From the NCBI GenBank assembly GCA_016193465.1, contig JACPSE010000091.1, positions 1 to 36,585 of the forward strand: a DNA stretch of 36,585 nt. Direction: 5' to 3'. Within the stretch, counting starts at the first letter, position 1. Every line of letters starts with the position of its first letter. The notes below the pieces were generated by a model. It did no database searches. It was not told the origin of the DNA and was given only the letters and a program-made list of their open reading frames with translations. Position numbers and translations under genes: made by a program. Below are positions 16,853 to 35,615 of this stretch, in pieces. This DNA is from Deltaproteobacteria bacterium (lineage in GTDB: Bacteria > Desulfobacterota > Binatia > UBA9968).

Positions 16853-16914
16853 AGGGTTAACGAGCACGATGAAAAGTTCAAATGACAAAGGGTTGAAGGA
16901 ATTAAGGGTTGATG
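16822..16914. repeat. Interspersed repeat at the cofG/cofD junction
   Basis: aaggtttaaaggttcaagag and the following ttgcagggttaaagggttaa cross the cofG stop (16850-16852). Diverged copies (gggttgaagg, ttaagggttg) continue to the cofD start. It matches the reverse complement of the right arm of the recD2 insertion (ggttcaagagtt, aaagggttaa). Confidence 0.55.
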
Positions 16915-16915
16915 G

Positions 16916-17839: not shown

Positions 17840-17850
17840 ATGTAACGAAG

Positions 17851-18600
17851 ATGAACGTTGCTGCGCTTATTCCTGCAAAGGGCTTTACCAACGCCAAGCA
17901 AAGGCTCTCTCCGCTCCTGGGTGTGGTGGAGCGGGAGCTCTTGGCGGAGGCGATGCTGCGCGATGTCCTGGGTCAGGTGGTTCTCACCCGGGGGTTAGAC
18001 GGGGTCTACGTAGTTACGGAGGATTCCAAAGTTTCCGAGATCGCCTCCTTCCTGGGGATCCATGTGATACGCGAAGAGAGTGAAAGAGGTGAGACCGAAG
18101 CAGTGGTCTTTGCCCTGTCAAAGATAAGCCAGGTCGGGATTCACAGCGTCCTCGTTATCCCCGGAGACATCCCCTTGGTCCGCTCAAGCGACATCGAGCT
18201 GCTCCTGGAGCAGATTTCTGGCCACGATAGAGATATCCCCTTTGCGCTCTTGACGCCATCGCATGACCGGATGGGAACCAACGCACTTTTGCTCTCTCCT
18301 CCTGGTGTGATTAAGCTCCGCTTCGGTTATGACAGCTTCTCTTACCATCTGGGTCAGGTTGAGGCGGCAGGGCTGCCACCAAGGGTCCTGGAGAATGAGA
18401 TGATCGCTCTCGATATTGACGAGCCCAAGGATCTGGAGCGTTTCATGGAGTTCGCGGCTCGTGTTCGTGGGTCGTGTTCGCCGGACGAGCACGATAACCG
18501 AGCACGAGCACGGATAGCTGCAGGCAATACCTACGAGAGGGCTTTTAAGATGGGGGTGTTCGGCGCGCTGGAGAACGCCAAGCGGTCGGGAAGATTATGA
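17851..18600 (+). CDS. cofC: 2-phospho-L-lactate / PEP guanylyltransferase CofC
   Basis: Activates 2-phospholactate or phosphoenolpyruvate with GTP for CofD. 249 aa. The nucleotidyltransferase start ALIPAKGFTNAKQRLSPLLG and later VIPGDIPLVRSSDIELLL and LDIDEPKDLERFM are diagnostic. The product is longer than usual at the C-terminus: residues about 203-219 are encoded by a palindromic repeat, and about 30 further residues (RIAAGNTYERAFKMG) follow. It starts 11 bp after cofD and overlaps cofE by 4 bp (ATGA), so all are one transcript. Confidence 0.93.
   Translation: MNVAALIPAKGFTNAKQRLSPLLGVVERELLAEAMLRDVLGQVVLTRGLDGVYVVTEDSKVSEIASFLGIHVIREESERGETEAVVFALSKISQVGIHSVLVIPGDIPLVRSSDIELLLEQISGHDRDIPFALLTPSHDRMGTNALLLSPPGVIKLRFGYDSFSYHLGQVEAAGLPPRVLENEMIALDIDEPKDLERFMEFAARVRGSCSPDEHDNRARARIAAGNTYERAFKMGVFGALENAKRSGRL
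18458..18508. repeat. Intragenic palindromic hairpin in cofC
   Basis: CTCGTGTTCG (18458-18467) pairs with CGAGCACGAG (18499-18508), ten pairs with one G-U. Inside it CGTGTTCG (18473-18480) pairs with CGAGCACG (18486-18493), eight pairs with one G-U around a 5-nt loop. The two-tier hairpin is translated in frame near the CofC C-terminus. The cgagcacgat motif recurs at 16861. Confidence 0.6.
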
Positions 18601-19361
18601 GGCGGCTCGAAGTCATAGGCCTCGAGAATCTGGGCGAGGTGCGGCGAGGCGACTCTATCGCCAGGCTCATCCTTAAGGGTTGTTCCCACAACAACGTGGC
18701 TCTGACCGAAGGAGATATCCTGGTGGTGGCTCATAAAATAGTTTCCAAGTCAGAGGGGCGGATCGTGCGTCTGGCTGAGATACAACCCTCGGCTCACGCC
18801 CTGGAACTATCCCGCGAGCTGAACGATAAGGATCCCCGGCTGCTGCAGATCATTTTGAGCGAGAGCCGACGCATTATTAGAAAGGGAGGCGGGACCATCA
18901 TCGTCGAGAGCCACCACGGTTTTGTCTGCGCCAACGCTGGCGTGGATCTATCCAATGTTGGTCTGGGCATGGTCGCGCTTTTGCCCCAGGATCCTGATCG
19001 CTCGGCAAGAGAGATCCGTGAAGAGATCCAGAAGCTCAGCGGCGTAGCTATAGGGGTGATTATCAGTGATAGTTTCGGTCGCCCCTGGCGCTTGGGCACG
19101 GTGGACGTGGCGGTCGGTGTATCGGGCCTTAAGCCATTGAAGGACGAGCGCGGGAGAAACGACCGCTACGGCTATGAACTTAAGGCCTCTGTGGCCGCGG
19201 TGGCTGATGAGCTGGCGGCGGCGGCGGAGCCGGTGATGGGGAAGAGAGGCGAGGTTCCGGTTGCAATCATTCGCGGCGACGGCGTAGAAATAAAAGAGGA
19301 GGATGGATCGGTGAAGGATCTCCTCCGTCCAGAAGCGGAGGATCTGTTTCGCCATTTCTGA
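18597..19361 (+). CDS. cofE: Coenzyme F420-0:L-glutamate ligase CofE
   Basis: Adds L-glutamate residues to F420-0 using GTP. 254 aa, matching the stand-alone archaeal-type CofE; the C-terminal FMN/nitroreductase domain of actinobacterial FbiB is absent. Motifs: GDILVVAHKIVSKSEGRIVRL, FVCANAGVDLSNVG, VIISDSFGRPWRLGTVDVAVG, and LKPLKDERGRNDRYGYEL. The ATG overlaps the cofC stop. If the pathway runs through dehydro-F420-0, a separate reductase would be needed and is not visible here. Confidence 0.95.
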   Translation: MRRLEVIGLENLGEVRRGDSIARLILKGCSHNNVALTEGDILVVAHKIVSKSEGRIVRLAEIQPSAHALELSRELNDKDPRLLQIILSESRRIIRKGGGTIIVESHHGFVCANAGVDLSNVGLGMVALLPQDPDRSAREIREEIQKLSGVAIGVIISDSFGRPWRLGTVDVAVGVSGLKPLKDERGRNDRYGYELKASVAAVADELAAAAEPVMGKRGEVPVAIIRGDGVEIKEEDGSVKDLLRPEAEDLFRHF

Positions 19362-19367
19362 GGTGCC

Positions 19368-20021
19368 ATGAAAAAAGAGATCAACATAGCGATTGTGGGA
19401 GGGACGGGAAATCTGGGCAGCGCCTTGGCGCTGCGCCTGCTTGCTCCCGGGGTCAAAGTCATCATCGGCTCGCGGGATAAGGAAAAGGCCAAAACAGTGG
19501 TCGAGTCTTTGAAGAAAATCCAGCCGAAAGGGAACCTCGAAGGGAAAACCAATCAGGAGGCGGTTAAAGAGGCCGGGTTTGTGGTAATTGCCGTTCCTTA
19601 CGAAGGCCATGCGACGACGGTCGCACAACTCAAAGGTCAACTCGCGGGCAAAACCGTTATCAATGCCGTGGTGCCGCTCAAAAAAGGAAAACCGTTTGTT
19701 CCGCCTGCCGGCTCCGCTCTGCTTGAGTCCCAGGGGATTTTAGGGGATGAGGCGCCGGTAATCGGGGCGCTGCACAATATCTCGGCAGTCGATTTGCAGT
19801 CTCCCGATGCTCCGCTAGGCGATGTGCTGGTCTGCGGCGACAACGATGGCGCGAAACAAAAAGTCATGGAGATCATTCACAGGATCGGGGCGCGGACTTT
19901 TGATGCCGGTCCGGCCGCCAATGGCTATGTCATCGAAGGGCTCACCGGAGTCTTGATCTATCTCAACCGGAAGTATAAATCCAGGCACGCCAGCGTGAAG
20001 GTCACAGGGATCGGGGACTAA
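19368..20021 (+). CDS. npdG: NADPH-dependent F420 reductase (F420H2:NADP oxidoreductase)
   Basis: Transfers hydride between NADP(H) and F420. 217 aa, usual length. Rossmann motif IAIVGGTGNLGSALALRL at the N-terminus, then the NADP phosphate-binding IIGSRDKEKAK, and VVIAVPYEGHATTV and INAVVPLKKGKP, which are characteristic of Npd/Fno proteins. A GAGGTG ribosome-binding site sits in the 6-bp gap after cofE. Location as the last gene of the cof operon supports supply of reduced F420 to F420-dependent enzymes elsewhere in the genome. Confidence 0.93.
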   Translation: MKKEINIAIVGGTGNLGSALALRLLAPGVKVIIGSRDKEKAKTVVESLKKIQPKGNLEGKTNQEAVKEAGFVVIAVPYEGHATTVAQLKGQLAGKTVINAVVPLKKGKPFVPPAGSALLESQGILGDEAPVIGALHNISAVDLQSPDAPLGDVLVCGDNDGAKQKVMEIIHRIGARTFDAGPAANGYVIEGLTGVLIYLNRKYKSRHASVKVTGIGD

Positions 20022-22160: not shown

Positions 22161-23654
22161 ATGGGGACAACATCCCGTCAGCTTGGTTTTACCAACGCCA
22201 ACCGCCACATCGTCGATGAAGACGAAATCAAACTTACCAGCGTCGGCGTCGATATCGGCTCCTCGACGTCGCACCTCGTCTTCTCCCGCCTTGAGATGCG
22301 GCAGGAGGGGACGCGTTACGTCATCGTGCGGCGCGAGATACTCAACGAATCTGAGATCCTACTCACGCCCTACCTGGACGATCTGACGATTGACGTCCAG
22401 ACATTGGGAAAGTTCATCAACCGCCAGTACGAGCGCGCCGGTTTGAAGCGCGAAGATGTTGACACAGGCGCGCTGATCCTGACGGGTGTAGCCGTTAGGC
22501 GCCGCAACGCGCGCGCCATTGGAGAGCTGTTCGCCAAGGAGGCTGGCCGCTTCGTCGCGGTAAGCGCGGGCGACGGCCTAGAGAGCACGATGGCTGCTCA
22601 CGGCTCAGGCGCCGTGGCCGAGTCTGCCAGGGCGGGCGGGATCTGCCTGAACATCGATATCGGGGGTGGAACGAGTAAGTTTGCCATCTGCACTAAGGGC
22701 AGGGTCCGGGAGGTGACGGCAATCGACGTCGGGGCGCGATTGATCGTGCTTGACGGAGACAGTAGGGTTACGCGGGTTGAGGAGGCTGGCCGCTTTTTCG
22801 GCGGGGCAGTAGGGCTGAATCCGACGGTCGGAGAGAAATTGGATGCCTCCAAGCTGCCTGCCATGGCCTCTTTAATGGCCGATAAGCTCTTTGATCTGGT
22901 GAGTCTCTCAACCCTTTCTCCAGAGACCAGCGGGCTGTTGCGTCTGCCGCCTTTGTCCTATCGGGGCAAGATTGACGCGATTACGTTTTCAGGGGGAGTC
23001 TCTGAGTTCATTTACGGTCATAACCCGGGAGACTTCGGAGATCTGGGGGCGTTGCTGGCAGAAGAAGTCAAGCGGAGAGTCGAACGTTTGGGCATCCCGG
23101 TAATCGAACCCGCCGCAAGGATCAGGGCAACGGTCATCGGCGCCTCGCAATACACCATTCAGGTGAGCGGGAGCACCATTTTCATCGCGCCTCTGGAGGC
23201 GGTGCCGGTGCGCAATGTGCCGGTTGTGGTCCCGGAGCTGCCGCTCGCCGGAGACGATATTGATCATCTGGCTGTAAGGAAGGCCTTAGAGATGGCTCTA
23301 TCGCGCCTGGATCTTACGGACGGAAAACGGCCCGTTGCCGTTGGCTTTCACTGGGAGGGCTCGGCAACTTTCGCGCGCCTGCAGGCCTTTTGCTCAGGCG
23401 TCAGAGACGGGCTTGAGAGGGTGCTCGGCAGAGGACACCCACTGATGCTGGTGAACGACGGCGATATCGGCGGCATTCTCGGTCTGCATTTCAAGGAGGA
23501 GATGGACTTTTCCAATCCGGTTATCTCCATTGACGGCATCTCGCTCAACGAGTTCGATTACATTGATATCGGCGCGTTGATCCCCTCATCGGGCGCCGTT
23601 CCGGTGGTCGTCAAGTCGCTCATCTTTCCCGCGTCAGCGCAGCCACCAGACTAA
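22161..23654 (+). CDS. Ethanolamine ammonia-lyase reactivase EutA-like protein
   Basis: 497-aa actin/Hsp70-fold ATPase of the EutA family. In ethanolamine users it exchanges damaged cobalamin on EutBC. ATPase elements are visible: phosphate-1 SVGVDIGSSTSHLVFS, phosphate-2 ICLNIDIGGGTSKFAI, adenosine-like TFSGGVSEFIYG. Further EutA segments are GVAVRRRNARAIGELFA and VVVPELPLAGDDIDHLA. Length is normal. EutB, EutC and other eut genes are absent from the window; instead it is paired with a bicupin gene 36 bp upstream. It may service another B12 enzyme or a distant EutBC. Confidence 0.85.
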   Translation: MGTTSRQLGFTNANRHIVDEDEIKLTSVGVDIGSSTSHLVFSRLEMRQEGTRYVIVRREILNESEILLTPYLDDLTIDVQTLGKFINRQYERAGLKREDVDTGALILTGVAVRRRNARAIGELFAKEAGRFVAVSAGDGLESTMAAHGSGAVAESARAGGICLNIDIGGGTSKFAICTKGRVREVTAIDVGARLIVLDGDSRVTRVEEAGRFFGGAVGLNPTVGEKLDASKLPAMASLMADKLFDLVSLSTLSPETSGLLRLPPLSYRGKIDAITFSGGVSEFIYGHNPGDFGDLGALLAEEVKRRVERLGIPVIEPAARIRATVIGASQYTIQVSGSTIFIAPLEAVPVRNVPVVVPELPLAGDDIDHLAVRKALEMALSRLDLTDGKRPVAVGFHWEGSATFARLQAFCSGVRDGLERVLGRGHPLMLVNDGDIGGILGLHFKEEMDFSNPVISIDGISLNEFDYIDIGALIPSSGAVPVVVKSLIFPASAQPPD

Positions 23655-23926: not shown

Positions 23927-25864
23927 ATGGAGCTTACAGATCAGTTGGTGGAAACGCTGATCCAAGTCGAGGTTCCCAGCAACGGCTACCATAAAGGCCT
24001 GATTTCGTGTCAGGTTGCCTGTCCTGTGCACACGGACGCGCGCGGCTACGTACGCGCGATCGCTAACGGCGATTTCGAGCAAGCCTATCTCATCGCAAGA
24101 GGCCCCAACCCGTTTGCGTCGATCTGCGGAAGGATTTGCGGCGCGCCGTGCGAAACCTCGTGCCGCCGGGGAAAAATTCCTCGCACAGATGACGACGGAT
24201 CGTTTGTGACAATGGATCGGCCGATTGCGATCCGTGCCTTAAAGAGGTTCGTCTGTGAATCCTACGGCGCGGAGGCGCGACCCGCAGCAGAAATCCTGGA
24301 GGCTCTCCGGAGACATCTGCCAGCTGTTGCGGGCGACGGCGAAGAGATGGTGCTTTTACTTCGGGCGGCGGTTCAGGGAACTTTTATCCCTGCCAAGGGG
24401 GAGCAGGTCGCGATCATCGGTTCGGGTCCTGCCGGGCTTAGCGCGGCGCACGATCTGGCGCTACTCGGCTTCAAGCCGGTGGTGTTCGAACTGGAGCCGG
24501 TTGCAGCTGGAATGCTCGCGGTGGGCGTTCCGGAATACCGTCTTCCCCGCGAACTGATTCGACGAGAAGTTTCCGTGATCGAGGCCCTGGGCGCGGAAAT
24601 TCGCTGCAATACCAAAATTGGGCGCGATGTCTCGTTTCACTCTCTGCGAAATGAGTTCTCCGCCGTGATTATCGCCGTTGGCGCCAAGAGCCCGCGAGCT
24701 TTAGGTCTTCCAGGCGAACAAGGGCCGGGCATTTTCGGCGGCGTTGATTTTCTGCGATCGGTGGCGCTCGGTGAGCGTCTGCCGCTGGGATCGGACGTGA
24801 TCGTGATCGGCGGAGGAAACGTGGCCTATGACGTTGCCCGTACGGTAGTTCGCCAGGCAGCCTACGATGCCGCTCGAACGGCAGCCCGCCTGCCGGGAAC
24901 ACGGCGTGTTCGTCTGGTCTCACTCGAAACTCTGGAGGAGATGCCGGCTGACACCGCGGAGATCATCGAAGGAGACGAGGAGGGGATCGAGCGGGTATCG
25001 GGTTGGGGGCCCGTGGCCGTTCAGCGGGGGAATCAAGGAAATGTCGTGGGACTCGATATCAAGCGCTGCTTGCGCGTGTATGACGAGCAGCGTCGTTTTT
25101 CTCCTCAGTTCGAAGAGGGGGACCGGCAGACTCTACAGTGCGACACCGTTTTGATTGCGGCCGGCCAAGCGCCCGATCTTTCTTTTTTGGAGGAGGGCGG
25201 CGCCGATGTCGAGCAGTTTCGGCCGGGCTGGCCTAAGGTCGATTCGACGACACTCATGACCTCGGCCAAAGGGGTCTTTGTCGCAGGGGACCTCGCGCAT
25301 GGAACGCGGCTCTTGATCGACGCTGTGGCGTCTGGAAAAAAGGCGGCCCGCTCAGTCTACCAGTATGTAACTGGCCGGGCGCTCCATCCAGAGACGCTCA
25401 TGAGCTTTATTCGACTCGACCGCTACAAGCGTGAGCCCGGCTTTGAGCGGATTCGACGCATCGGGCTCCCCACATTAGGGCCCGAAGAAAGACTTAAAGA
25501 CCCCAAAGCGCTGGTGGAACAATGCCTCGGAAAAGAAGAAGCGGTGCGGGAAGCCTCGCGCTGCCTCGATTGCGGTGTGACACCCGTTTTCGATGGCAAT
25601 CGTTGCATCCTCTGTGGCGGGTGTGCCGACGTTTGCCCCACCCTTTGCTTGAAGATTGTTCCTCTCTCCTCTCTGAGCCAAATGGGGAACCTCGCCGAGC
25701 TTGTGGAATCTCACCTGGGTGAAAGCGCGGACTTGGAAAACAACTCGGCGATCCTAAAGGATGAGGAGCGCTGTATCCGCTGCGCGCTTTGCGTGGATCG
25801 CTGCCCTGCCGATGCCATTGCCATGGAACAAGTAACCTTCCAAACCGAGTGGAGGACAGTATGA
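23927..25864 (+). CDS. GltD-like FAD-dependent NAD(P) oxidoreductase with 2x[4Fe-4S] ferredoxin domain
   Basis: 645-aa soluble flavoprotein that probably exchanges electrons between NAD(P)H and a membrane complex. The N-terminal helical FeS domain has SCQVACPVHTDARGY and CGRICGAPCETSCRRGKI. Rossmann motif 1, VAIIGSGPAGLSAAHDLA (about residue 160), binds FAD. Rossmann motif 2, VIVIGGGNVAYDVARTVV (about 292), binds NAD(P). The C-terminus carries two [4Fe-4S] motifs, CILCGGCADVCP (about 560) and CIRCALCVDRCP (about 615). The stop overlaps the Rieske start (ATGA). In glutamate synthase this fold feeds GltB, but no GltB is present; fusion by operon to Rieske/cyt b points to an NAD(P)H-linked bc-type complex, as proposed for anammox bacteria. 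Confidence 0.88.
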   Translation: MELTDQLVETLIQVEVPSNGYHKGLISCQVACPVHTDARGYVRAIANGDFEQAYLIARGPNPFASICGRICGAPCETSCRRGKIPRTDDDGSFVTMDRPIAIRALKRFVCESYGAEARPAAEILEALRRHLPAVAGDGEEMVLLLRAAVQGTFIPAKGEQVAIIGSGPAGLSAAHDLALLGFKPVVFELEPVAAGMLAVGVPEYRLPRELIRREVSVIEALGAEIRCNTKIGRDVSFHSLRNEFSAVIIAVGAKSPRALGLPGEQGPGIFGGVDFLRSVALGERLPLGSDVIVIGGGNVAYDVARTVVRQAAYDAARTAARLPGTRRVRLVSLETLEEMPADTAEIIEGDEEGIERVSGWGPVAVQRGNQGNVVGLDIKRCLRVYDEQRRFSPQFEEGDRQTLQCDTVLIAAGQAPDLSFLEEGGADVEQFRPGWPKVDSTTLMTSAKGVFVAGDLAHGTRLLIDAVASGKKAARSVYQYVTGRALHPETLMSFIRLDRYKREPGFERIRRIGLPTLGPEERLKDPKALVEQCLGKEEAVREASRCLDCGVTPVFDGNRCILCGGCADVCPTLCLKIVPLSSLSQMGNLAELVESHLGESADLENNSAILKDEERCIRCALCVDRCPADAIAMEQVTFQTEWRTV

Positions 25865-26358
25865 CGACCGACGCCAAACCGACACAGACTAGCCGATCTC
25901 GGCTCGATCCGGAGGCGATGCCACGGAGGGATTTTCTTGGCCTGACCGCCTGGTGGTCTGCGGCCGCCACCCTCCTTTTCGGATTTCTTGGTGCGATGCG
26001 TCTGCCGAAAGCGGCTGTGCTCCCTTCGCCATCCAAAAAATTCAGGATCACGCTTCCCGCTTCCTTAGCTCCCGGGCAACCCTACCTACCGGCGGGTCGG
26101 TCTGTGGCCCTCTATAAGGAAGAAAGTCAAGTCTATGCGATCTCGCTCGTTTGCACTCATTTGGGTTGCATTGTCAAAGCGACCGACAGCGGTTTTGACT
26201 GTCCCTGCCATGGCTCAAAATTCGCAAAGGACGGCTCCGTATTGAAAGGGCCGGCGCCCAAAGCCTTGCCGTGGCGCGAGGTGAAGCATTTGAGCGGCGA
26301 CAATTTTTTCGTTGACGAGGGGAAGAGCGTCCCAGCGGGGACAACGGCGGGCGTATGA
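25861..26358 (+). CDS. Rieske [2Fe-2S] protein of a cytochrome bc complex
   Basis: 165 aa from ATG 25861, which overlaps the preceding stop. It carries a Tat-type/membrane anchor (PRRDFLGLTAWWSAAATLLF) and the two cluster motifs CTHLGC and CPCHGS, each supplying Cys and His ligands and the disulfide Cys. GSKFAKDGSVLKGPAPKALP is the usual following segment. It oxidises quinol at the Qo site of the cytochrome b encoded next (ATGA overlap at 26355). The frame is open back to 25789, but starting there would run deep into the flavoprotein gene. Confidence 0.95.
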   Translation: MTTDAKPTQTSRSRLDPEAMPRRDFLGLTAWWSAAATLLFGFLGAMRLPKAAVLPSPSKKFRITLPASLAPGQPYLPAGRSVALYKEESQVYAISLVCTHLGCIVKATDSGFDCPCHGSKFAKDGSVLKGPAPKALPWREVKHLSGDNFFVDEGKSVPAGTTAGV

Positions 26359-27923
26359 GTGATGTCGCGGAAAAACGGAGCGCAAGGGAGGAATCGGCGG
26401 TTGGCCGTTCCCTGGAAAACCTCAAGGCGGCTCCCCGCCGGTTTACCGAGACGGTGTTCCGTTCGGGAAGGCCTCATTCGGATCGGACTCGCTCGACCTT
26501 CGTCTTTGGCAATGTCTTTCTCCACCTGCACCCGGTCCGGACACACCGATGGAGCCTGCGCTGGTCGGCCACCTGGGGCTTGGGCATCGCGGCTATCTCC
26601 TGCTTCTTTGTTCTGCTGGTGACCGGCGTGCTTCTCATGTTTTATTACAAGCCGTACCCGGACGTTGCCTACCTTTCCATTAAAGATATCCATTTCGTCG
26701 TGCCCACGGGCCGCTTCATGCGGAACATCCACCGTTGGTCGGGCAATATAATGGTGGTGATCGTTCTCCTTCACATGGCCCGTGTCTTTTATACTGCGGC
26801 TTATCGCTCGCCGCGCGAATTTAACTGGGTGATCGGCATGGGGCTTTTGATGGCCACTCTCGGCCTTTCATTCACCGGATATCTTTTGCCGTGGGATCAG
26901 TTGGCCTATTGGGCGATCACCATCGGCGCTAACATCGCGCAGTCTCCTCGGGAGCTGACGGATGCGCTGGGGATAACAGAGTGGTTTGACGTGGGCGGGT
27001 TGCAAAAGTTGATCCTTTTGGGCGCCGAAGAGGTCGGAGAAGAGGCGCTCATCCGCTTCTATCTTTTTCACGTGATGATTCTGCCGTTGATTTTGGTGAT
27101 CCTGGTGACCGTTCACTTCTGGCGCATCCGTAAAGACGGCGGACTGGCGAGGCCCATTGACGCCGACAACCGGCTCGGACCTTCCTCGGGAGATGTGTAT
27201 CCGGTTTTTACGGAGGCCGCTCAAAAAACCTACAGCCTGGCTGCAGTTGTAAAAGGAAAAACGCCGATTGTGGGGCACGGACCCGAACAGACTATCCCTT
27301 CTATGCCTCATCTTTTGATTGGAGAGGCCGCGGTCTTCATGTTGACGATTGCCCTCTCCGTCATTCTTGCGATTTTTCTCGACGCCCCTTTGAAAGAGTT
27401 AGCGAACCCGGCAGTCCCCGAAAACCCCGCCAAAGCTCCGTGGTACTTCCTCGGGCTTCAAGAGCTGGTTTCCCACTCCGCCTTCATGGGAGGCATCGGA
27501 ATCCCGTTGATCGTGCTCATCGGTCTTGGCCTGATTCCTTACCTCGATCGAGAGACGGAGGGGAGCGGACTATGGTTCGGCGGGCTGGGGGGACGGTCGC
27601 TGGTTATCCGCTCGGCCATCTTCGGCCTTGCGGCCGTAGTGGCGGTCGAGGCGTTTGTAATTCGCTTCGGCTGGATTCGGCAATGGTGGCCCAACACACC
27701 CCAGATGATCATCACCTTTATCAATTCGGGAACGCTTCTTACCTTTCTCTACGCTACGTACTCCGTTTGGTGTCTTAGAAAGTACAACTCGACGCGGGCA
27801 GGCGCTCTCGCCCTATTCACCTGTTTTGTCTGCGGTTTCGTTGTGCTCACCGTAGTTGGAACGTACTTCCGCGGACCCAACTGGGATTTTTATTGGTCTC
27901 CATCGCAGTGGCCAGGGCACTAA
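26355..27923 (+). CDS. Cytochrome b (fused b6/subunit IV) of a bc-type complex
   Basis: 522-aa membrane protein binding two b hemes. Helix B ligands are His126 and His140 (13 residues between), helix D ligands His239 and His254 (14 between); the 14-residue spacing is the cytochrome b6 type. The subunit-IV-like half follows in the same chain. The Qo-site motif normally PEWY reads APWY (361-364) in NPAKAPWYFLGLQELV, so the Glu is absent, as in several deep-branching bc complexes. About eight to nine membrane helices plus a 60-residue soluble N-terminus. The gene is coupled to Rieske and lies 1 bp before the heptaheme cytochrome gene. Confidence 0.95.
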   Translation: MSDVAEKRSAREESAVGRSLENLKAAPRRFTETVFRSGRPHSDRTRSTFVFGNVFLHLHPVRTHRWSLRWSATWGLGIAAISCFFVLLVTGVLLMFYYKPYPDVAYLSIKDIHFVVPTGRFMRNIHRWSGNIMVVIVLLHMARVFYTAAYRSPREFNWVIGMGLLMATLGLSFTGYLLPWDQLAYWAITIGANIAQSPRELTDALGITEWFDVGGLQKLILLGAEEVGEEALIRFYLFHVMILPLILVILVTVHFWRIRKDGGLARPIDADNRLGPSSGDVYPVFTEAAQKTYSLAAVVKGKTPIVGHGPEQTIPSMPHLLIGEAAVFMLTIALSVILAIFLDAPLKELANPAVPENPAKAPWYFLGLQELVSHSAFMGGIGIPLIVLIGLGLIPYLDRETEGSGLWFGGLGGRSLVIRSAIFGLAAVVAVEAFVIRFGWIRQWWPNTPQMIITFINSGTLLTFLYATYSVWCLRKYNSTRAGALALFTCFVCGFVVLTVVGTYFRGPNWDFYWSPSQWPGH

Positions 27924-27924
27924 G

Positions 27925-29598
27925 ATGAAGGCGAACAAACATCTACTCCTTTGGTCGAGTCTCGCAGCGTTGGCCGTGCTTTTGTGGGCCGCGGTCCATG
28001 AGAACTTCTTTCGCGATTGGCGCGTCACTCAGCGGGAGATTCAGGCGCGGCTTCCCTCGTCTCAGGCCGATGCGTTTACCATTCAGCTCAAACAGATTGT
28101 CAGTCGCGAAGTCGGGGCAACGGATCGGTGTGTGAGCTGCCATGTCGGAATGGCGCCGGGTGAGAGCGGCATCGAGGGGGACCGGCTCTTCGGGCGCCAC
28201 CCCGACGTTGTCCACGATCCCGCCTCTTATGGTTGCACGGTCTGTCACGGCGGACAGGGGCGAGCGACCGAGACTGCGGACGCGCATGGCACGGTCCCTC
28301 ATTGGCCGGAACCGATGCTTTCCAAAGAGTACTTGTTTGCCGGCTGTGGAGGATGTCACACCCACTTAAGTGTCTCCAACCTCACGCAACTTGAAGAAGG
28401 GAGGGCCCGTTTCGAGCAAGCCGATTGCCTCGCTTGCCACAAATTGGACGGACGCGGCGGGACGCTTCGCCCGGGCGGAGCGGGAGGACAGGAGGGACCC
28501 GATCTCTCCCGCGTGGGTGCGTATGGATTTAAGGCGAACTGGTACGAGCACCATATCGAGCAAAAAAAGAAGGCGGCCTCCGGTCCGTGGATCTCCGCAT
28601 TTGGTGAGCTTTCCGCTTCGGAGCGTCTCGCGACCGACGAATACCTGCGCTCCCGTGTTGGCGCGCCCGGTTTATCGGAAGCCAAAGCCCTCTTTCATAC
28701 GCTGGGATGCCGTGGGTGCCACAAAGTCCGGGGTGTCGGCGGCGATGACGGCCCGGACCTGACCGCGGTTGGAAACAAAGATCCCGGACAAGTCAGTTTC
28801 GCCCAGGTGGAAGGCGAACGGACACTCGCGAATTGGTTCAAAAAGCATTTCCGTTCTCCTGCGACGGTGGTACACGGCTCTGCCATGCCCGAGTTGGGAC
28901 TGACAGAGCAACAGATCGATCAACTCACTTTTTACGTGTTGTCGCTTCGCCACCGGATTTATCCGGAAGCCCTTTGGCCGAAAGACCGGATTCGGGCGGA
29001 GCGTTTTGGAATGAGAGAATTCGCGACGGACGGTGCGACGCTCTATGGAACTTTCTGCGCGGCCTGCCACGGCGCGAAAGGCGAAGGAATGCGTTACCCG
29101 GGTTTCACTCCCTTCCCAGCCATCGGAAATCCTGATTTCCTTCGGTTGGTTTCGGACGATTTCTTAAGGGAGCAGATCAAGCGGGGTCGGCCCGGGCGGC
29201 GGATGCCGGCCTGGGGACAGCAAGAAGGAGGCTTACGCGACGAGGAGATCGGTCGGCTGGTGGCGTACGTTCGAAATCTTGGAGGCGCCGCTTATGAAGG
29301 AGATCCCAAGCCGCGTCGGTGGGTTCAGGGTGATGCGGCGGAAGGGGAGCGACTGTTTGCCAAAGCTTGCGGGGTGTGCCACGGGGAGCGCGGAGAAGGT
29401 CGAGAGGGGCCTCAGCTCAACAACCGGGTTTTTCTCGATCTCGCCGCTGACACTTATCTCTTCAAAACCATCCGAAACGGTCGCAAGGGAACCTCGATGG
29501 CCGGATTCGGAGGGGGTTCATCGGTGCGGGGGGCTATGACGGACGCGGAGATTTCATCAATTGTCGCGTTCCTGCGAACCTGGGAGGGAAAAAAATGA
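27925..29598 (+). CDS. Membrane-anchored heptaheme cytochrome c
   Basis: 557 aa from ATG 27925 (the upstream open frame to 27856 overlaps cyt b and is unlikely). An N-terminal anchor ([18 protein letters not shown]) precedes seven CxxCH heme motifs: CVSCH 69, CTVCH 104, CGGCH 141, CLACH 168, CRGCH 262, CAACH 378, CGVCH 482. The first three are crowded and lack monoheme domain spacing. The last four head separate cytochrome c domains, with likely axial Met in segments such as [15 protein letters not shown] and TSMAGFG. It replaces cytochrome c1 or f and could carry electrons between the bc complex and the molybdoenzyme encoded next (ATGA overlap). Confidence 0.93.
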
Positions 29599-32500
29599 AG
29601 AACATTAGCCGTCGTGAATTCCTGGAGTGGGTGGGAGTTGCGGGCTTTTCGACGTTTCTGGCCTCGGTGAGTGATGCCTGGGGCATCGGGGCGATTGAAA
29701 ATCCGTTGGCGGCCTACCCAAGCCGCGATTGGGAAAAGGTCTATCGCGATCTTTGGAAATCCGACTCGACCTTTACCTTTCTCTGCGCCCCCAACGATAC
29801 CCACAACTGCATCTTGAATGCCTACGTTCGTGACGGCGTGGTCACGCGGATCGGTCCGACCATGAAATACGGCGAGGCGACGGACCTCTACGGGTCGAAG
29901 GTCTCTCATCGGTGGGACCCTCGCGTCTGCCAAAAGGGACTGGCCCTCACCCGCCGCTTCTACGGCGACCGCCGGCTGCGCTATCCCATGGTGCGCAAGG
30001 GCTTTAAGGCCTGGGTTGAGAAAGGATTTCCTCGCGGCAAGGATGGCCGACCTCCGAAAGAATACTTCAACCGGGGCCGCGATGAGTGGCTGCGGATCAC
30101 GCACGAGCAAGCGGCGGATCTGGTCGCGGCAGCGTTAGTCAATATCGCCACGACTTACAACGGCGAGAAGGGGCAGAAACTGCTCTTGCGGCAAGGATAC
30201 GAAGAGGAGACCGTTCAGGCAACGAAAGGGGCTGGGACCCAGGTTCTTAAGTTCCGCGGCGGAATGCCTCTTCTGGGACTCACTCGAGTTTTCGGGTTGT
30301 ACCGCGTAGCCAATTCCATGGCCTTGCTCGATCACAAGCTGCGCGGGGTGAAACCCGAAGATGCTCTGGGAGGGCGGGGCTGGGACAATTACTCCTGGCA
30401 CACCGATCTTCCGCCGGGCCATCCCATGGTGACAGGCCAGCAGACCGTGGAGTTCGATCTCCACGCCGTGGAGCTGGCCCGCATGGTGGTGGTGTGGGGA
30501 ATGAATTGGGTGACCACGAAGATGCCGGATACGCACTGGCTGACAGAGGCCAGGATCAAAGGGACCAAGGTGGTGGTGATCGCCTGTGAATATTCCTCCA
30601 CCAGCATAAAAGCCGACGACGCCATTGTGGTTCGTCCCGGCACGACTCCCGCGCTCGCCCTGGGGCTTTGCAACGTCATTATGCGGGAAAAACTCTACGA
30701 TGGAGATTACGTCCGGCGCTTCACCGATCTCCCGCTCCTGGTTCGGGCCGACAGCCTGAAGCTCCTTCGGGCCGAGGAAGTCTTTGGCACCAAGCCGGCA
30801 CCGCTTAAAAACCAGACGAAGACCGTCGGCAAAGGGGACAAAGTGCCGCCCCCGGGCGCTCAAACCGACATCCTGATTCCGGAGGAGATGAGACAGGCCT
30901 GGGGAGATTTCGTCTGGTGGAATCGAAAAACATCCAAGCCCGAAGCGATCACGCGCGACCAGGTGGGAAAATTCTCTGCCGTGGCCGAGCCGCTTCTGGA
31001 GGGGTCCGTGGAGGTGACGCTCAAAGATGGAAAAAAGATCGCCTGTCGCCCGATCTTCGATGTGATCCTCCAATATGTGAAGCATTTCGATCCGAAGACA
31101 ACCGAAGAAATAACCTGGGCGCCCGCGCAAGCGGTTGAAAGTCTGGCGCGGGAGATCGCCAAGGCTCCGGGGACCACCCTGTTCGCGATCGGCATGGGCC
31201 CCAACCAATTTTTCAATAATGACAACAAAGACCGGACGCAATTTCTCCTTGCTGCGCTCACCGGCAACATCGGAAAACTGACTGGCAATATCGGCTCTTA
31301 CGCCGGGAACTACCGGGTGGCCATGTTCAACGGCGTTCCGCAATACATCGCCGAGAACCCATTTGATATCGAACCCGATGCTGCCAAGCCTTCGCGGCCG
31401 AGATTTTATTGGAAGGCCGAGTCGGCCCACTACTACAACCACGAGGATCATCCCCTGAAGATGGGCAAGACCATGATTACGGGAAAATCCCATATGCCGA
31501 CCCCGACCAAGTCGCTTTGGTTTGCCAACGCCAACTCGATTTTGGGAAACGTCAAGTGGCACTACAACACCGTCGTCAATGTCCTTCCCAAGATAGAGAT
31601 GATCGCAATGCAGGAGTGGTGGTGGTCGACCTCGTGCGAATGGGCCGATCTGGTCTTTGCGGTGGATAGTTGGGCCGAGCTCAAGTATCCCGACATGTGC
31701 TGCTCGGTCACCAACCCTTTTCTGACTGTTTTTCCCCGCACTCCCCTGGAGCGGCCGTTCGAGACCCGGGGAGACATTGAGTGCCTGGCGCTCGTAGGGG
31801 ACGCCCTCGCCAAACGAACAGGCGACTCGCGTTTCGCCGATATGTGGAAGTTTGTGAAAGAGGGCAAGGTGGAAGTTTATTTGCAACGGATCCTCGACCA
31901 TTCTTCGACTACGAAGGGTTACAAGTTCGCGGACTTGGAGGAAAAGGCGAAGAAGGGAATTCCTGCCCTCATGATGACCCGAACCAATCCGAAGTCGGTC
32001 GGCTATGAGCAGGTTTACGACTCCCGCCCGTGGTACACCAAGACGGGTCGTTTGGAGTTTTACCGGGAAGAGGATGAATTCATTGATGCCGGAGAAAACC
32101 TGCCGGTTCATCGCGAGCCAGTCGATTCCACCTTCTACGAACCCAACGTGATTGTGGCTCCACCGCATCCTTTCATAAAGGCCAGGGGACCCGAGAGCTA
32201 CGGAGTCAAAAGGAACGATCTCTCCAACGAAGTTCGCCAGGGACGAAATGTCGTCAAGACCTGGGAAGAAGCTAAAAAAACCGCCCATCCCCTCGCTAAA
32301 GACGGCTACAAGTTCGTCTTTCATACGCCGAAGTACCGGCATGGAGCGCATACCATGCCGATCGATACCGACATGGTGGCGATGCTGTTTGGTCCCTTCG
32401 GGGACATTTACCGCCATGACAAGCGCCAGCCCTCTGTCGCAGAGGCTTACGTCGATATCCATCCCGACGATGCCAAGTCGCTCGGGATCGATGACGGAGA

Positions 32501-33053
32501 CTACGTTTGGATCGATTCCGATCCCGAAGACCGCCCGTTCCGCGGCTGGAAAAAGAACGACAAAGATTACAAGTTCTCGCGGCTTCTTTGCCGCGCCCGT
32601 TACTATCCCGGCACGCCCAGAGGAATCACGCGCATGTGGTTCAATATGTACGGCGCCACTCCGGGATCGGTCGAAGGACATCAGTCACGGGAAGATGGGT
32701 TGGCCAAGAATCCGCGCAGCCCCTATCAGGCGATGTTCCGCTCCGGCTCGCATCAGTCGGCGACCCGAGGCTGGCTGAAGCCTACCTGGATGACCGATTC
32801 GCTGGTGCGTAAGAATCTGTTCGGCCATTCGGTGGATAAAGGCTTTCTCCCCGACGTCCATTGCCCGACGGGCGCGCCGCGCGAGGCGATCGTCAAGATC
32901 TCAAAGGCAGAGGCCGGCGGGCTTAACGGCAAGGGGCTGTGGCGTCCCGCAGCAATCGGGCTTCGGCCCAAATATGAGCGCAAGGGAATGAAGGACTACC
33001 TCGCGGGAAAATTCATTGTCGCCTCAAATTCTAAGAAAGGCGGGAAGAAATAA
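29595..33053 (+). CDS. NXR/NAR-type molybdopterin oxidoreductase catalytic subunit (type II DMSO reductase family)
   Basis: 1152-aa Mo-bisPGD enzyme with Tat signal ([10 protein letters not shown]), so periplasmic. Cluster FS0 ligands appear as Cys64-x3-Asp68-x3-Cys72 in CAPNDTHNC plus Cys112 in DPRVCQKG; Asp stands where NarG has Cys. The Mo ligand is predicted to be Asp271 in [13 protein letters not shown], the signature of the NarG/NxrA group. Length fits NxrA (about 1,150) better than cytoplasmic NarG (about 1,250). Candidate reactions: nitrite oxidation, nitrate reduction, or another oxyanion or hydrocarbon substrate. Translationally coupled to the cytochrome c gene before it and the FeS-subunit gene after it. 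Direction of catalysis is not readable from sequence. Confidence 0.88.
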
Positions 33054-34180
33054 TGGCACGCGTATACAATTGGCAAATCGGCCGTGAAATGCCCTACTGG
33101 TATCCGGAGCACCGGCCCAAACGACAGTTTGCAGCCGTCTTCGATACCAACAAATGCATCGCCTGTCAGACCTGCACGCTCGCCTGCAAAACCACCTGGA
33201 CGAGCGGCAAGGGCCAGGAGTACATGCTGTGGAATAACGTTGAGACTAAACCCTACGGCTTTTATCCGCTCGCATGGGATTTGAACCTTCTCGAAAAGCT
33301 CGGCGCGCAAAATTGGGAGGGCGAGCGTTATTCGGGGCGGACGATCTTTGAGGCGGCGCAACCGGGAGAGCGGGTCCTGGGCTGGCGACCTGAAGACATC
33401 GACTATGCCAATCCCAACGTCGGTGAAGATGACTGCGTGAACGGCGTGGAAAAGGGCGCCCACTTCAGCGGCGTGCACAAATCCTGGTTCTTTTACCTTG
33501 CCCGCATCTGTAACCATTGCACCTATCCGGCCTGCCTTGCTTCCTGCCCACGCGGCTCTATTTACAAAAGGCCTGAGGACGGCATCGTTCTGATCGACCA
33601 GGGGCGCTGCCGGGGATATCAGGAATGCGTCAAGGGGTGTCCTTACAAGAAGACGTTTTACAACACGATGACAGGGACATCCGAGAAATGCATCGCCTGT
33701 TTTCCCAAGATTGAGCTCGGAATGCAGCCCCAGTGCTTCGTAAACTGCATCGGCAAGATCCGCTTTGCGGGATGGATTTCCAAACCCGAGAACGCGAGAG
33801 CCGACAATCCGATCGATTTCTTGGTGCACGTAAAGAAGGTCGCGCTGCCGCTCTTTCCACAGTTCGGACTCGAGCCCAACGTCTATTACATCCCCCCCGT
33901 CAATGTGCCGCGGGAGTTTCTCCTTCAGATGTTCGGGCCGAACGTAGATGCAGCGATAGAAACCTACCAAAACGCCCCCCGAGACAAAGATCTTTCCGGC
34001 CTGCTAACGCTCTTTGGCTCGACAGAGTCCATGGTCTCGAAATGGAAGCGAGTCGAGGAGCAGGTGATGGGCTACGACGAGGGCGGCCGGGAAATCATCC
34101 GGGTTCCCCTCCGCGAGCCGACGCATATCCGGCAAGCGTTTGACGCCGCCCGGGGCGTTGCGAGGACAAACATTTCTTAA
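33053..34180 (+). CDS. NXR/NAR-type iron-sulfur beta subunit
   Basis: 375-aa electron-transfer subunit with four clusters. Motifs: [48 protein letters not shown] (Tyr in place of one Cys, giving the [3Fe-4S] site), and [11 protein letters not shown] with [24 protein letters not shown] and [16 protein letters not shown] are typical of NxrB/NarH. It has no signal peptide of its own and would be exported in complex with the Tat-signal alpha subunit. The ATG shares one base with the alpha stop (TAATG). Confidence 0.93.
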
Positions 34181-34191
34181 GGAGAACAGCT

Positions 34192-35055
34192 ATGAACGTT
34201 CGAAGTCTCGCTGTTGTGGCCACCGTAGTCTCTGCGGCGTTTGTCGGCTGTACAAAAACGGAGCCTCCGCTCTCCGACTCTGAGGTCAAGGCCGTGTTCG
34301 AAAAAACTCTTCCCTCCACGGTCGAGGATCGGATCTGGGAGCGCGTTCCGCTGCATCCGGCGAAGCTTCTGCTTCAGGACATGGTCGAACCCAGGTTGAC
34401 GCAAGGCTCGACCTCCTTTGTTCGCGTCCAGTCGGTCACGGACGGACAAAAAATTGCTTTTCGTCTGAGTTGGAGCGATTCAACGCTGGATGACCTGCCG
34501 GGACCCGGGCGGTTCGGGGACGCCGTCGCGCTTCAGATGCCCGCGGCGACTACCGCGGATGTTCCTGCTCCGCAAATGGGAGAGCAAGAAAGGCCGGTCG
34601 AGATCACCTACTGGTCGGCGATTTTTCAGGCTGTTGCAAACGGACGCAAAGACGATATTCACGCCATCTATCCTCGCGCCAAGGTCGATCACTACCCGTT
34701 CGAGGCGGCATCGCTTAAGCCGGGATCAGCCGCGCAACAGGAGATGGCCAAGCGCTACGCCCCGGCGCGCAGCCTGGAAAACCCGATGGCCGGCCCGCGC
34801 ACTAATCCCGTACAAGATCTGTTGGCCGAAGGTCCAGGGACGATTCGCCCGGCCGAAAAGAGCCTTTCGAACGGAGGCGGAAAATACTCCCAAGGTGGCT
34901 GGTCCGTGTTATTGGTCCGTCCCCTCCCGAACGGCGCGCAACCGGGAGGGCGTACCCAAGTCGCGTTTGCTGTTTGGGAGGGATCCCATCAGGAAGTCGG
35001 CTCCAGAAAGATGCGCACCGCCTGGATTCCGCTCTCGTTGGGAAGTGCCAAATGA
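34192..35055 (+). CDS. Heme-b gamma subunit lipoprotein (ethylbenzene dehydrogenase-related family)
   Basis: 287-aa periplasmic subunit. The lipobox VSAAFVGC marks a lipoprotein, tethering the complex to a membrane. The fold family binds one heme b with Met and Lys ligands in EbdC; the matching positions here are Met116 in GDAVALQMP and Lys273 in GSRKMRTAWIPL. It replaces the NarI membrane anchor of ordinary nitrate reductase, so electrons leave to, or come from, a periplasmic carrier such as the heptaheme cytochrome. AAGGAG precedes the ATG at 34192. The stop overlaps the chaperone start (ATGA). Confidence 0.85.
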   Translation: MNVRSLAVVATVVSAAFVGCTKTEPPLSDSEVKAVFEKTLPSTVEDRIWERVPLHPAKLLLQDMVEPRLTQGSTSFVRVQSVTDGQKIAFRLSWSDSTLDDLPGPGRFGDAVALQMPAATTADVPAPQMGEQERPVEITYWSAIFQAVANGRKDDIHAIYPRAKVDHYPFEAASLKPGSAAQQEMAKRYAPARSLENPMAGPRTNPVQDLLAEGPGTIRPAEKSLSNGGGKYSQGGWSVLLVRPLPNGAQPGGRTQVAFAVWEGSHQEVGSRKMRTAWIPLSLGSAK

Positions 35056-35615
35056 AAACGACGTCCAACTCCAAGACTGAGGAGCTGGTAGCGCAGGCCG
35101 CGGCATGGCGTGTGGCATCTCTTCTTCTGGAACGCCCGCGGCCGGAATGGCAAAGCGAGATTGTAAAACTCTGCTCCGAAGTGACCGATCGGAAACTTTC
35201 GGCGTGTGCCAAGGGGGCCGATCAGGGAACAGAAGAAGTCTATCACCGGCTTTTTGGTCCCGGGGCAACCGTATCCCCACGAGAGGTCAGTTATTGCGGG
35301 CTCGAAGACCCGGGCCGCCTAATGGCGGAACTGGCCTCTTTTTATGATGCGTTCTCGTTTCAGCCGCGCCGGGAAGAGCCCATTGACCATATCTCCGTGG
35401 AGGCCGGTTTCGTGGGCTACCTGTTCTTGAAAGAGGCTTACGCCGAAATGCGCGGGGATTCAGAATCTGCCGAGATCACGAAGAACGCGAGAGAACGCTT
35501 TACAGACGAGCATGTCGGACGGTGCGCGCGCGGGATGATTCAACGGCTGAGCGAGGGTCCGCCGTACCTCCGCAGCGTCCTTTTGTGGTTGGCTGAAAAA
35601 GGGAATCTTGCGTAG
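35052..35615 (+). CDS. TorD/NarJ-type molybdoenzyme chaperone
   Basis: 187 aa from ATG 35052, which overlaps the gamma-subunit stop; the frame is open back to 34974 but that start would overlap heavily. An all-helical cytosolic protein of the TorD/DmsD/NarJ family: [53 protein letters not shown], and [14 protein letters not shown]. It should hold the Tat-signal catalytic subunit until the Mo cofactor is inserted. Last gene of the eight-gene redox operon. Confidence 0.88.

Follow-up and report, generated by a model that had tools for sequence, protein, structure and literature searches.

Nitrite oxidoreductase (NXR) of Kuenenia catalyzes its reaction in both directions, and its catalytic subunit combines an iron-sulfur (FeS) cluster, FS0, held by three cysteines and one aspartate, with a substrate-site asparagine and an aspartate that ligates molybdenum (PMC8387239). 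The NXR of Nitrotoga falls in a sister clade to the Nitrospira and anammox NXRs, together with putative nitrate reductases (NARs) and the characterized periplasmic NAR of Hydrogenobacter (PMC6050957). Kuenenia also possesses two Rieske/cytochrome b complexes, Kuste4569-74 and Kustd1480-85, which carry an NAD(P) oxidoreductase and a multiheme cytochrome c and have Rieske potentials of +303 and +335 mV; for these, the authors favor quinol bifurcation to NAD(P)+ (PMC12954380). As modeled, both complexes contain heme cN; AlphaFold 3 predicts an extra heme b at His43 of Kuste4571, and no energy-paying reaction is reported to have been proposed for Kustd1480-85 (PMC12954380). Elsewhere, haloarchaea hold Rieske/cytochrome b and nitrate reductase genes in one cluster (PMC4683180), and Caldithrix abyssi has Rieske/cytochrome b genes within its Nap cluster (PMC5317091). 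Here we describe an eight-gene operon that encodes a flavoprotein, a Rieske protein, a cytochrome b, a heptaheme cytochrome c, an NXR-type molybdoenzyme and a chaperone. It lies in a 36,585-nucleotide stretch of DNA from a Deltaproteobacteria bacterium of the Binatia lineage (contig JACPSE010000091.1 of assembly GCA_016193465.1, a genome of 4.5 Mb in 238 contigs), which we call the window.

We favor a reading, with a probability of about 0.45, in which the products of this operon form one supercomplex that oxidizes quinol, reduces nitrate in the periplasm and bifurcates electrons to NAD(P)+. We favor it because of the NXR-type alpha subunit, the anammox-like upstream module, the neighbors of related modules and a similar gene run in Haloferax. 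The gene set, its order, the cofactor ligands, the family placement and the recurrence of the operon are all read directly from sequence; from there, we infer physical assembly and nitrate as the substrate. Quinol would be oxidized at the Qo site of cytochrome b, with one electron passing to the Rieske center. This high-potential electron would then travel through the membrane-anchored heptaheme cytochrome c to the heme b of the gamma subunit, the FeS beta subunit and finally the molybdenum-containing alpha subunit, which would reduce nitrate to nitrite in the periplasm. The low-potential electron would pass from heme bP to heme bN and through a cytosolic FAD/FeS subunit to NAD(P)+, such that nitrate reduction pays for NAD(P)+ reduction, as in the quinol bifurcation proposed for Kuste4569-74 and Kustd1480-85. 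Nitrate lies at about +420 mV and ubiquinol at about +90 mV. Taken with menaquinol at about -70 mV and NAD(P) at -320 mV (PMC12954380), these midpoint potentials would make the bifurcation sum favorable with menaquinol and not with ubiquinol. Within this reading, the reductive direction appears likely, and NAD(P)+ as the low-potential electron acceptor via the flavoprotein is a more tentative assignment that falls slightly short of an even chance.

Table 1. Genes of the operon and their positions in the window.
Gene product	Position	Strand	Length	Family match
Flavoprotein (FNR): NAD(P)/FAD oxidoreductase, GltD/NfnB-like	23927..25864	+	645 aa	
Rieske [2Fe-2S] protein, N-terminal hydrophobic anchor	25861..26358	+	165 aa	Pfam Rieske
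Cytochrome b, b6-like N-terminal domain fused to subunit-IV-like C-terminal part	26355..27923	+	522 aa	
Heptaheme cytochrome c, N-terminal hydrophobic anchor	27925..29598	+	557 aa	Pfam Cytochrom_C
Alpha, NXR-type molybdopterin catalytic subunit, Tat-like N-terminus	29595..33053	+	1152 aa	Pfam Molybdopterin
Beta, NarH/NxrB-type FeS subunit	33053..34180	+	375 aa	Pfam Fer4_11
Gamma, EB_dh heme-b subunit, lipoprotein-type N-terminal Cys	34192..35055	+	287 aa	Pfam EB_dh, 82 bits
TorD/NarJ-type chaperone	35052..35615	+	187 aa	Pfam Nitrate_red_del, 34.5 bits, above cut-off

The eight open reading frames (ORFs; Table 1) span 23927-35615 on a single strand, and none contains an internal stop. At four of the seven junctions (flavoprotein/Rieske, Rieske/cytochrome b, cytochrome c/alpha and gamma/TorD) the genes share 4 nt in an ATGA-type overlap, the alpha/beta junction overlaps by 1 nt, and the remaining two genes follow after gaps of 1 nt (cytochrome b to cytochrome c) and 11 nt (beta to gamma). 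An earlier note, made from the letters alone, had described eight tightly packed genes of one operon with a heptaheme cytochrome. That description is confirmed: five of the seven junctions overlap, Pfam families agree with all eight gene identities, the cytochrome c contains exactly seven CxxCH motifs, and both the packing and the recurrence of the order in other loci bear out a single operon. The chaperone also matches TIGR03482 at 41.8 bits, below that family's cut-off.

The molybdoenzyme is closest to NXR in all three of its subunits. Alpha shows full-length homology to Kuenenia NXR-A (PDB 7b04_B; 886 bits over residues 4-1141), and the best matches of beta and gamma are the partner chains 7b04_A (NXR-B, 381 bits) and 7b04_C (68 bits). 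The next solved relatives of alpha score far lower: 181 bits for 4ydd, named in the PDB as a type II DMSO reductase family enzyme and presumably a perchlorate reductase, 151 bits for ethylbenzene dehydrogenase (EBDH), and 120-126 bits for NarG chains. In an alignment of 100 rows, seven of them duplicates, C64, N67, C72 and C112 of alpha are conserved in 99 rows, D271 in all 100, and D68 in 94, with Cys instead in five. Together these six residues match the FS0 and molybdenum-site pattern of the Kuenenia enzyme (PMC8387239). A different substrate, whether chlorate, selenate, iodate or an organic compound as in EBDH, would fit the EB_dh fold of gamma; given the distance in score to every other solved relative and the agreement of Asn67, Asp68 and Asp271 with NXR-A, we consider it quite improbable. 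A hydrocarbon or sterol hydroxylase, also considered for gamma, was rejected as NXR-A is far closer.

Ordinary membrane nitrate reductases use the diheme membrane subunit NarI. NarI is absent among the Pfam and NCBIfam matches of the eight proteins, where gamma appears as EB_dh instead, and with only 120-126 bits to NarG chains an ordinary NarGHI enzyme was rejected. The predicted heme ligands of gamma are invariant, with M129 present in 24 of 24 rows and K273 in all 23 rows that have letters at that position. By eye, a Cys follows the hydrophobic N-terminal stretch in 24 of 24 rows (a scripted lipobox pattern finds it in 18 of 24), and gamma is therefore probably a lipoprotein.

The tree in which we placed alpha among its relatives has 93 rows and was built by a quick method (LG+G4, midpoint root) from sequences retrieved with the window's own alpha. 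Nine of 99 locus rows were left out, namely duplicates L088-L094 and fragments L078 and L098, and L108 entered by its larger frame piece only. The window's alpha falls in a 32-row clade with an SH-aLRT support of 100, of which 30 rows have the upstream module, one is cut (L011) and one has none (L028). Adjoining clades hold the enzymes of Thioploca, Bdellovibrionota and Gallionella/Nitrotoga, and the other side of the tree holds anammox-type enzymes. By this placement, alpha belongs to an NXR-containing lineage, the same one as Nitrotoga NXR. That lineage is known, but the papers searched gave no report of this operon from it, such as the earlier note had named as telling against its reading.

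The lineage bears directly on a reverse flow of electrons, in which nitrite oxidized in the periplasm would feed the heptaheme cytochrome c and the Rieske/cytochrome b complex, and proton motive force together with an NAD(P)H partner would lift electrons to quinone or NAD(P). Nitrotoga NXR sits in a neighboring clade, and Kuenenia NXR works in either direction (PMC8387239), both of which speak for such a flow. Against it, none of the nine Nitrotoga/Gallionella alpha rows has the module, with the reservation that about 10 kb of upstream DNA exists only in L050, L051, L053, L058 and L086, and L054-L057 have at most 617 bases. Moreover, RuBisCO, the one marker of CO2 fixation covered, was found in none of 13 carriers. 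A nitrite-oxidizing bacterium using the Calvin cycle was set aside on the same count, which is not decisive.

Three further sets of NXR-like alpha genes deserve mention in their own right. The window's own genome has a second one (L126 5765-9274, contig C10) in an anammox-side clade, accompanied by beta, TorD and a gamma with two CxxCH motifs; no Rieske/b module match was found in the 20 kb examined. One Gallionella MAG (metagenome-assembled genome; STA_52) contains three copies (L050, L051 and L086) in the clade adjoining Nitrotoga NXR. Plasmid 2 of Natronococcus occultus SP4 carries an NXR-like alpha (L108 11908-15494; 48.9%) split over two reading-frame pieces; it has no listed gene in an incomplete gene table, and annotated beta and TorD genes are present.

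The upstream module begins with a flavoprotein composed of a Pyr_redox_2 domain, an N-terminal Fer4_20 domain and a C-terminal Fer4 domain, the last being a ferredoxin domain for two [4Fe-4S] clusters. Its best PDB match is 9bov/9bp5 (269 bits); a Kuenenia NAD(P) reductase has likewise been matched by fold to 9bp5 (NfnABC) (PMC12954380). Sixteen cysteines are invariant in 24 of 24 rows and C622 is present in 23 of 24; the 16 would suffice for about four FeS clusters. A hydropathy search found no N-terminal hydrophobic segment in the flavoprotein, which is presumably cytosolic. In the Rieske protein, the CTHLGC and CPCHGS motifs occur unchanged in all 25 rows, and the b6f Rieske 2zt9_D (54.2 bits) and 9rk4_A (53.9 bits) match it about equally well; the molecule name of 9rk4 suggests that it is one of the Kuenenia Rieske proteins described in PMC12954380. 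The potential-raising Ser is present, and two residues further on stands Phe in 23 of 25 rows and Tyr in two. The Kustd1480 Rieske likewise lacks one of the two donors, Ser and Tyr, in the account given of it (PMC12954380).

The cytochrome b belongs to Pfam Cytochrome_B, with NCBIfam ExtP/ExtQ matches below cut-off. Its four b-heme ligands (H126, H140, H239 and H254) and its Qo motif APWY are invariant in 22 of 22 rows, and a canonical b6-like row (L124) has PEWY instead of APWY. In cytochrome b6, a Cys serves as the ligand of heme cN. This Cys aligns with Gly75 of the window's protein, a position that is Gly in 22 of 22 rows of its clade, Phe in L029 and Tyr in L027; within a 36-row alignment, Cys occupies the column in five of 31 rows of the wider cytochrome b type and in three of five canonical b6-like rows. 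All 31 rows of this wider type have His57, a conceivable counterpart of His43 in Kuste4571, and so does one of the five canonical rows (L131). Hydropathy detects eight segments where nine are expected for the whole protein, and the helices of an AlphaFold 2 model are compatible with a 4+5 arrangement in which subunit IV, as in the Kuenenia-type complex, would have five, but the model is poor (pLDDT 54.9).

The heptaheme cytochrome c carries its CxxCH motifs at residues 69, 104, 141, 168, 262, 378 and 482; all 23 rows aligned keep six of them, and the seventh is kept in 22. Residues 362-494 match the QcrC cytochrome cc at 62.5 bits, below the family cut-off of 200, and a Foldseek comparison of the predicted structure (pLDDT 75.7) with QcrC gives an E-value of 2e-4 and a low target-normalized TM-score of 0.38. 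These QcrC-like C-terminal hemes are consistent with the proposed wiring from the Rieske protein to the molybdoenzyme.

The flavoprotein is the component that distinguishes bifurcation from ordinary Q-cycle nitrate respiration, in which the electrons of both b hemes would go back to quinone and the flavoprotein would do no more than pass electrons from NAD(P)H to the complex or to the quinone pool. A Q-cycle can be enough by itself, since the Haloferax run is similar with no annotated flavoprotein and haloarchaeal nitrate reduction is inhibited by antimycin A (PMC4683180). Set against this, 23 of 24 clade loci with cytochrome b have the flavoprotein (the contig of the 24th, L010, begins at the Rieske gene), its FeS ligands are invariant, and the authors of the Kuenenia work argue that NAD(P)H-to-quinone transfer would waste energy in that organism (PMC12954380). 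We therefore judge a plain Q-cycle unlikely, and retain quinol bifurcation as the preferred role of the module.

To place the operon among other genomes, a single scan of genome contigs was made with patterns from the window's alpha, and the best 80 of 112 stretches represent 79 distinct loci; because the patterns come from this alpha, near relatives are favored. Alpha is at least 63% identical in 28 of the 79 loci, and among these 28 all four upstream genes are present in 23 and all eight genes stand in the same order in 19. In L010, L011, L020 and L021 the contig begins inside the operon, and L028 has no upstream module and an alpha that lacks the first 202 residues. None of the 51 loci of lower alpha identity (60.8% or less) has the module upstream, and 33 of them include at least 6.5 kb of upstream DNA. 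The order is thus not unique to the window, whereas an order found only here was one of the outcomes that the earlier note had named as telling against its reading. The four upstream genes in 23 of 28 loci, and all eight in 19, indicate that the arrangement is more than chance.

Six phylum-level labels occur among the 23 carriers: Acidobacteriota, Planctomycetota, Verrucomicrobiota, Ca. Poribacteria, Ca. Hydrogenedentota (Abyssobacteria) and Myxococcota, the last being our label for records titled 'Deltaproteobacteria bacterium'; two of the 23 loci are unlabeled. All 28 loci with alpha at least 63% identical are titled as MAGs, and the closest relatives in alpha are 'Deltaproteobacteria' MAGs at 90-91% identity. 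A single-genome feature or binning artefact was ruled out, since 23 loci have the upstream genes, including three on contigs of 192,898, 367,793 and 977,542 bases. Further afield, L062 (Ignavibacteriales, alpha 46%) has the module downstream in a different order, followed by NosZ, and L080 has, at 33.6% identity, a generic flavoprotein upstream. BET and RSK profile matches on overlapping frames are shadows of stop-to-stop ORFs and were left uncounted.

Related Rieske/b modules adjoin a variety of other respiratory enzymes. A NapA-like protein is the neighbor in L165, L166 and L168, and L169 has an ORF of the same size and place. The L165 partner is called NapA-like by NCBIfam; for the L166 and L168 partners, the six best PDB matches are all Nap (182-225 bits), with the best formate-type entry at 173 and 187 bits, and these partners likely act on nitrate, judging from such matches. 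CcoN- and CcoO-like proteins stand beside the module in L118, and a CcoN-like protein in L119; these cbb3-like proteins are below NCBIfam cut-offs (CcoN 340-361 of 583), and L118 is above the Pfam COX1 cut-off. In L120 (2314-12171), on an Ignavibacteriales MAG contig that also holds an NXR-like cluster, the flavoprotein, Rieske, cytochrome b and a pentaheme cytochrome c directly precede a Sec-type NosZ (914 bits, above cut-off) and then NosD. Respiration of N2O by clade II enzymes is reportedly tied to a Rieske/cytochrome bc complex, going by the title of a 2017 article by Hein and colleagues. In L167 (733-8854), two di-heme CCP_MauG proteins come after the Rieske/b module, along with an AioA-like protein. 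This is the layout described for idrABP1P2, which has peroxidase genes, in distinction to the aioA neighborhoods of that account, which have none (PMC8692401); the putative small subunit has no Pfam match. L167 may thus encode an iodate reductase, or an arsenite oxidase, with a dedicated bc module.

The majority of these neighboring enzymes resemble terminal reductases, and this is the main ground on which we prefer the reductive direction for the window's operon, although such an argument is guilt by association rather than proof. Of the two directions that the earlier note had left open, quinol to nitrate is supported as one, and the NapA-like, cbb3-like and NosZ neighbors argue for reduction and against nitrite oxidation. 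The AioA-like neighbor, if it is an arsenite oxidase, points the other way, as it would be an electron donor. With this evidence added to that from the alpha lineage, we regard nitrite oxidation as improbable here, though well above a negligible chance.

Other module kinds surround these. In L170, L173, L174, L175 and L181-L183, a Rieske protein, a protein of ~420-440 aa and a cytochrome b occur together, with a pentaheme cytochrome c in most; the ~420-440 aa protein has no family match in the two loci scanned (L170 and L173), and no FNR match was found in the stretches examined. This set is possibly a further module kind. In L171, L172, L179 and L180 the FNR is present, and the neighbors are proteins of 477-577 aa, with no family in the two scanned. 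A neurotransmitter-gated ion-channel-like protein (Neur_chan_LBD plus membrane domain) is encoded beside the Rieske/b module of L171 (11212-12306). A cytochrome b tree of 36 rows, picked by hand from the loci, groups the window, L009, L014, L015, L024 and L025 with the NapA- and AioA-linked modules (100/100), and L027 and L029 with the c8 type (98/95). The NXR-linked modules therefore do not form one group, and the module joined the alpha lineage, or was replaced there, at least twice. Anammox Rieske/b loci L129 and L130 (genome G097) have canonical b6-like N-termini; no NAD(P) subunit was found among their scanned neighbors.

Several points weigh against quinol-driven nitrate reduction with bifurcation to NAD(P)+. 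The weakest point concerns the quinone: the window's genome has no MenD, MqnA/D, UbiG or UbiH match above cut-off, and because bifurcation needs a low-potential quinol, these missing markers weaken it. The marker search covered 17 genomes, 15 with the window's kind of module plus G063 and G087 with the NapA-linked kind. MenD is above cut-off in six of 17 and a strong MqnA/D-type match occurs in five of 17, with both in one genome (G100); in G104 neither menaquinone marker was found. In G000, G006, G007, G008, G010 and G015, neither MenD nor UbiG reaches its cut-off (6/6); no MqnA/D-type match above cut-off was found in five of these, G010 having one of only 28 bits, and no UbiH match above cut-off in the five tested (all except G008).

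The enzymology gives further reason for caution. The alpha lineage includes the enzyme of a proven nitrite oxidizer, Nitrotoga, and NXR can run in either direction; we came across no biochemical work on any member of the family. The NapA-like partners score as well or better against NCBIfam formate dehydrogenase alpha (276-298 bits) than against NapA (244-286 bits), all below cut-offs, and the AioA-like protein of L167 is above the arsenite oxidase cut-off, with arsenite oxidases as its best PDB matches (310 bits). Because these assignments are ambiguous, not every partner is surely a reductase. In the window's genome neither NirK nor RuBisCO gave a match and Cytochrom_D1 matched only weakly (27.9 bits), the cytochrome b model is of low confidence, and the Kuenenia cytochrome b and NAD(P) subunits are likened to those of the window by description, not by sequence. 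PF02239 is above cut-off in nine of 13 carriers, at 18.6-38 bits per stretch and 67.5 bits at most with neighbors; at such low scores these matches were rejected as NirS and taken as other propeller proteins.

Overall, the operon is real and conserved, and its composition suggests a function. The gene set and conserved order support the dedicated bc-cytochrome c-molybdoenzyme assembly that the earlier note had proposed. Its view of the operon as an undescribed and unusual module stands in part: we found no report of the eight-gene operon in the open-licence literature searched, but the layout has precedents in Haloferax, Caldithrix and the anammox complexes. The parts are known, including a run without flavoprotein and heptaheme c. 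In the papers searched we found no description of the combination, of how widely it is spread among taxa, or of an NAD(P)-bearing Rieske/b core recurring beside varied respiratory enzymes. A broader view, which we hold only tentatively and give about a one-in-three chance, is that these loci represent widespread modular respiratory bifurcases: a Rieske/b core, often without heme cN, with a cytosolic NAD(P) arm and a multiheme cytochrome c, would divide the electrons of each quinol between NAD(P)+ and a swappable terminal reductase. The partners would be an NXR-type or Nap-like nitrate reductase, an iodate reductase, NosZ or a cbb3-like oxidase.

If such a family exists, nitrate as payer would suggest the kind of partner that is missing for anammox Kustd1480-85, and some bacteria would tie nitrate respiration directly to NAD(P)H production through a Rieske/cytochrome b complex. 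The occurrence of the core beside several respiratory enzymes makes the question of quinol bifurcation testable outside anammox. Finally, when an NXR-like alpha is found in Acidobacteriota, Planctomycetota or related MAGs, the upstream DNA should be checked before the organism is counted as a nitrite oxidizer.

Around the operon, the window contains an EutA-like reactivase gene (22161-23654; 384 bits, Pfam) in the same direction 272 bp upstream, and a class I fumarase-like ORF that starts downstream at 35675 and runs off the window's end. A coenzyme F420 gene run (CofG, CofD, CofC, CofE and NpdG) occupies 15623-20021, each gene above its NCBIfam cut-off.

Compared with known systems, the molybdoenzyme is closest to the lineage of Kuenenia NXR-ABC (PDB 7b04), Nitrotoga and Hydrogenobacter, with which it shares full-length homology in alpha and beta, homology in gamma and the Met/Lys heme ligands of gamma. 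It differs from Kuenenia NXR in the lipoprotein-type N-terminus of gamma and in an operon that adds the flavoprotein, Rieske, cytochrome b and heptaheme c; its alpha is about 41% identical to that of the anammox locus L072. The upstream module shares with Kuste4569-74 and Kustd1480-85 an NAD(P) oxidoreductase with FeS clusters, a Rieske protein with Ser and mostly Phe, a b6-like cytochrome b with subunit IV, and a multiheme cytochrome c. Unlike those complexes, the window's cytochrome b and subunit IV are fused, its cytochrome c has seven hemes instead of six or eight, a molybdoenzyme lies in the same operon, and the heme-cN Cys is missing, in contrast to the complexes as modeled (PMC12954380). 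Haloferax larsenii pHl5678-2 (L184) has the same order of Rieske, cytochrome b, molybdenum alpha, FeS beta, EB_dh gamma and TorD, except for a small ORF between cytochrome b and alpha. Its alpha differs in type (27.3% identity, covering 50% of the query), the window's alpha not being of the haloarchaeal NarG type, and neither flavoprotein nor heptaheme c is annotated in the region inspected. The actinobacterial bcc-aa3 supercomplex has a QcrC that weakly resembles the C-terminal hemes of the heptaheme cytochrome in sequence and fold; there the terminal enzyme is an oxidase, and in the window it is a molybdoenzyme, reached through a cytochrome with more hemes, seven in all.

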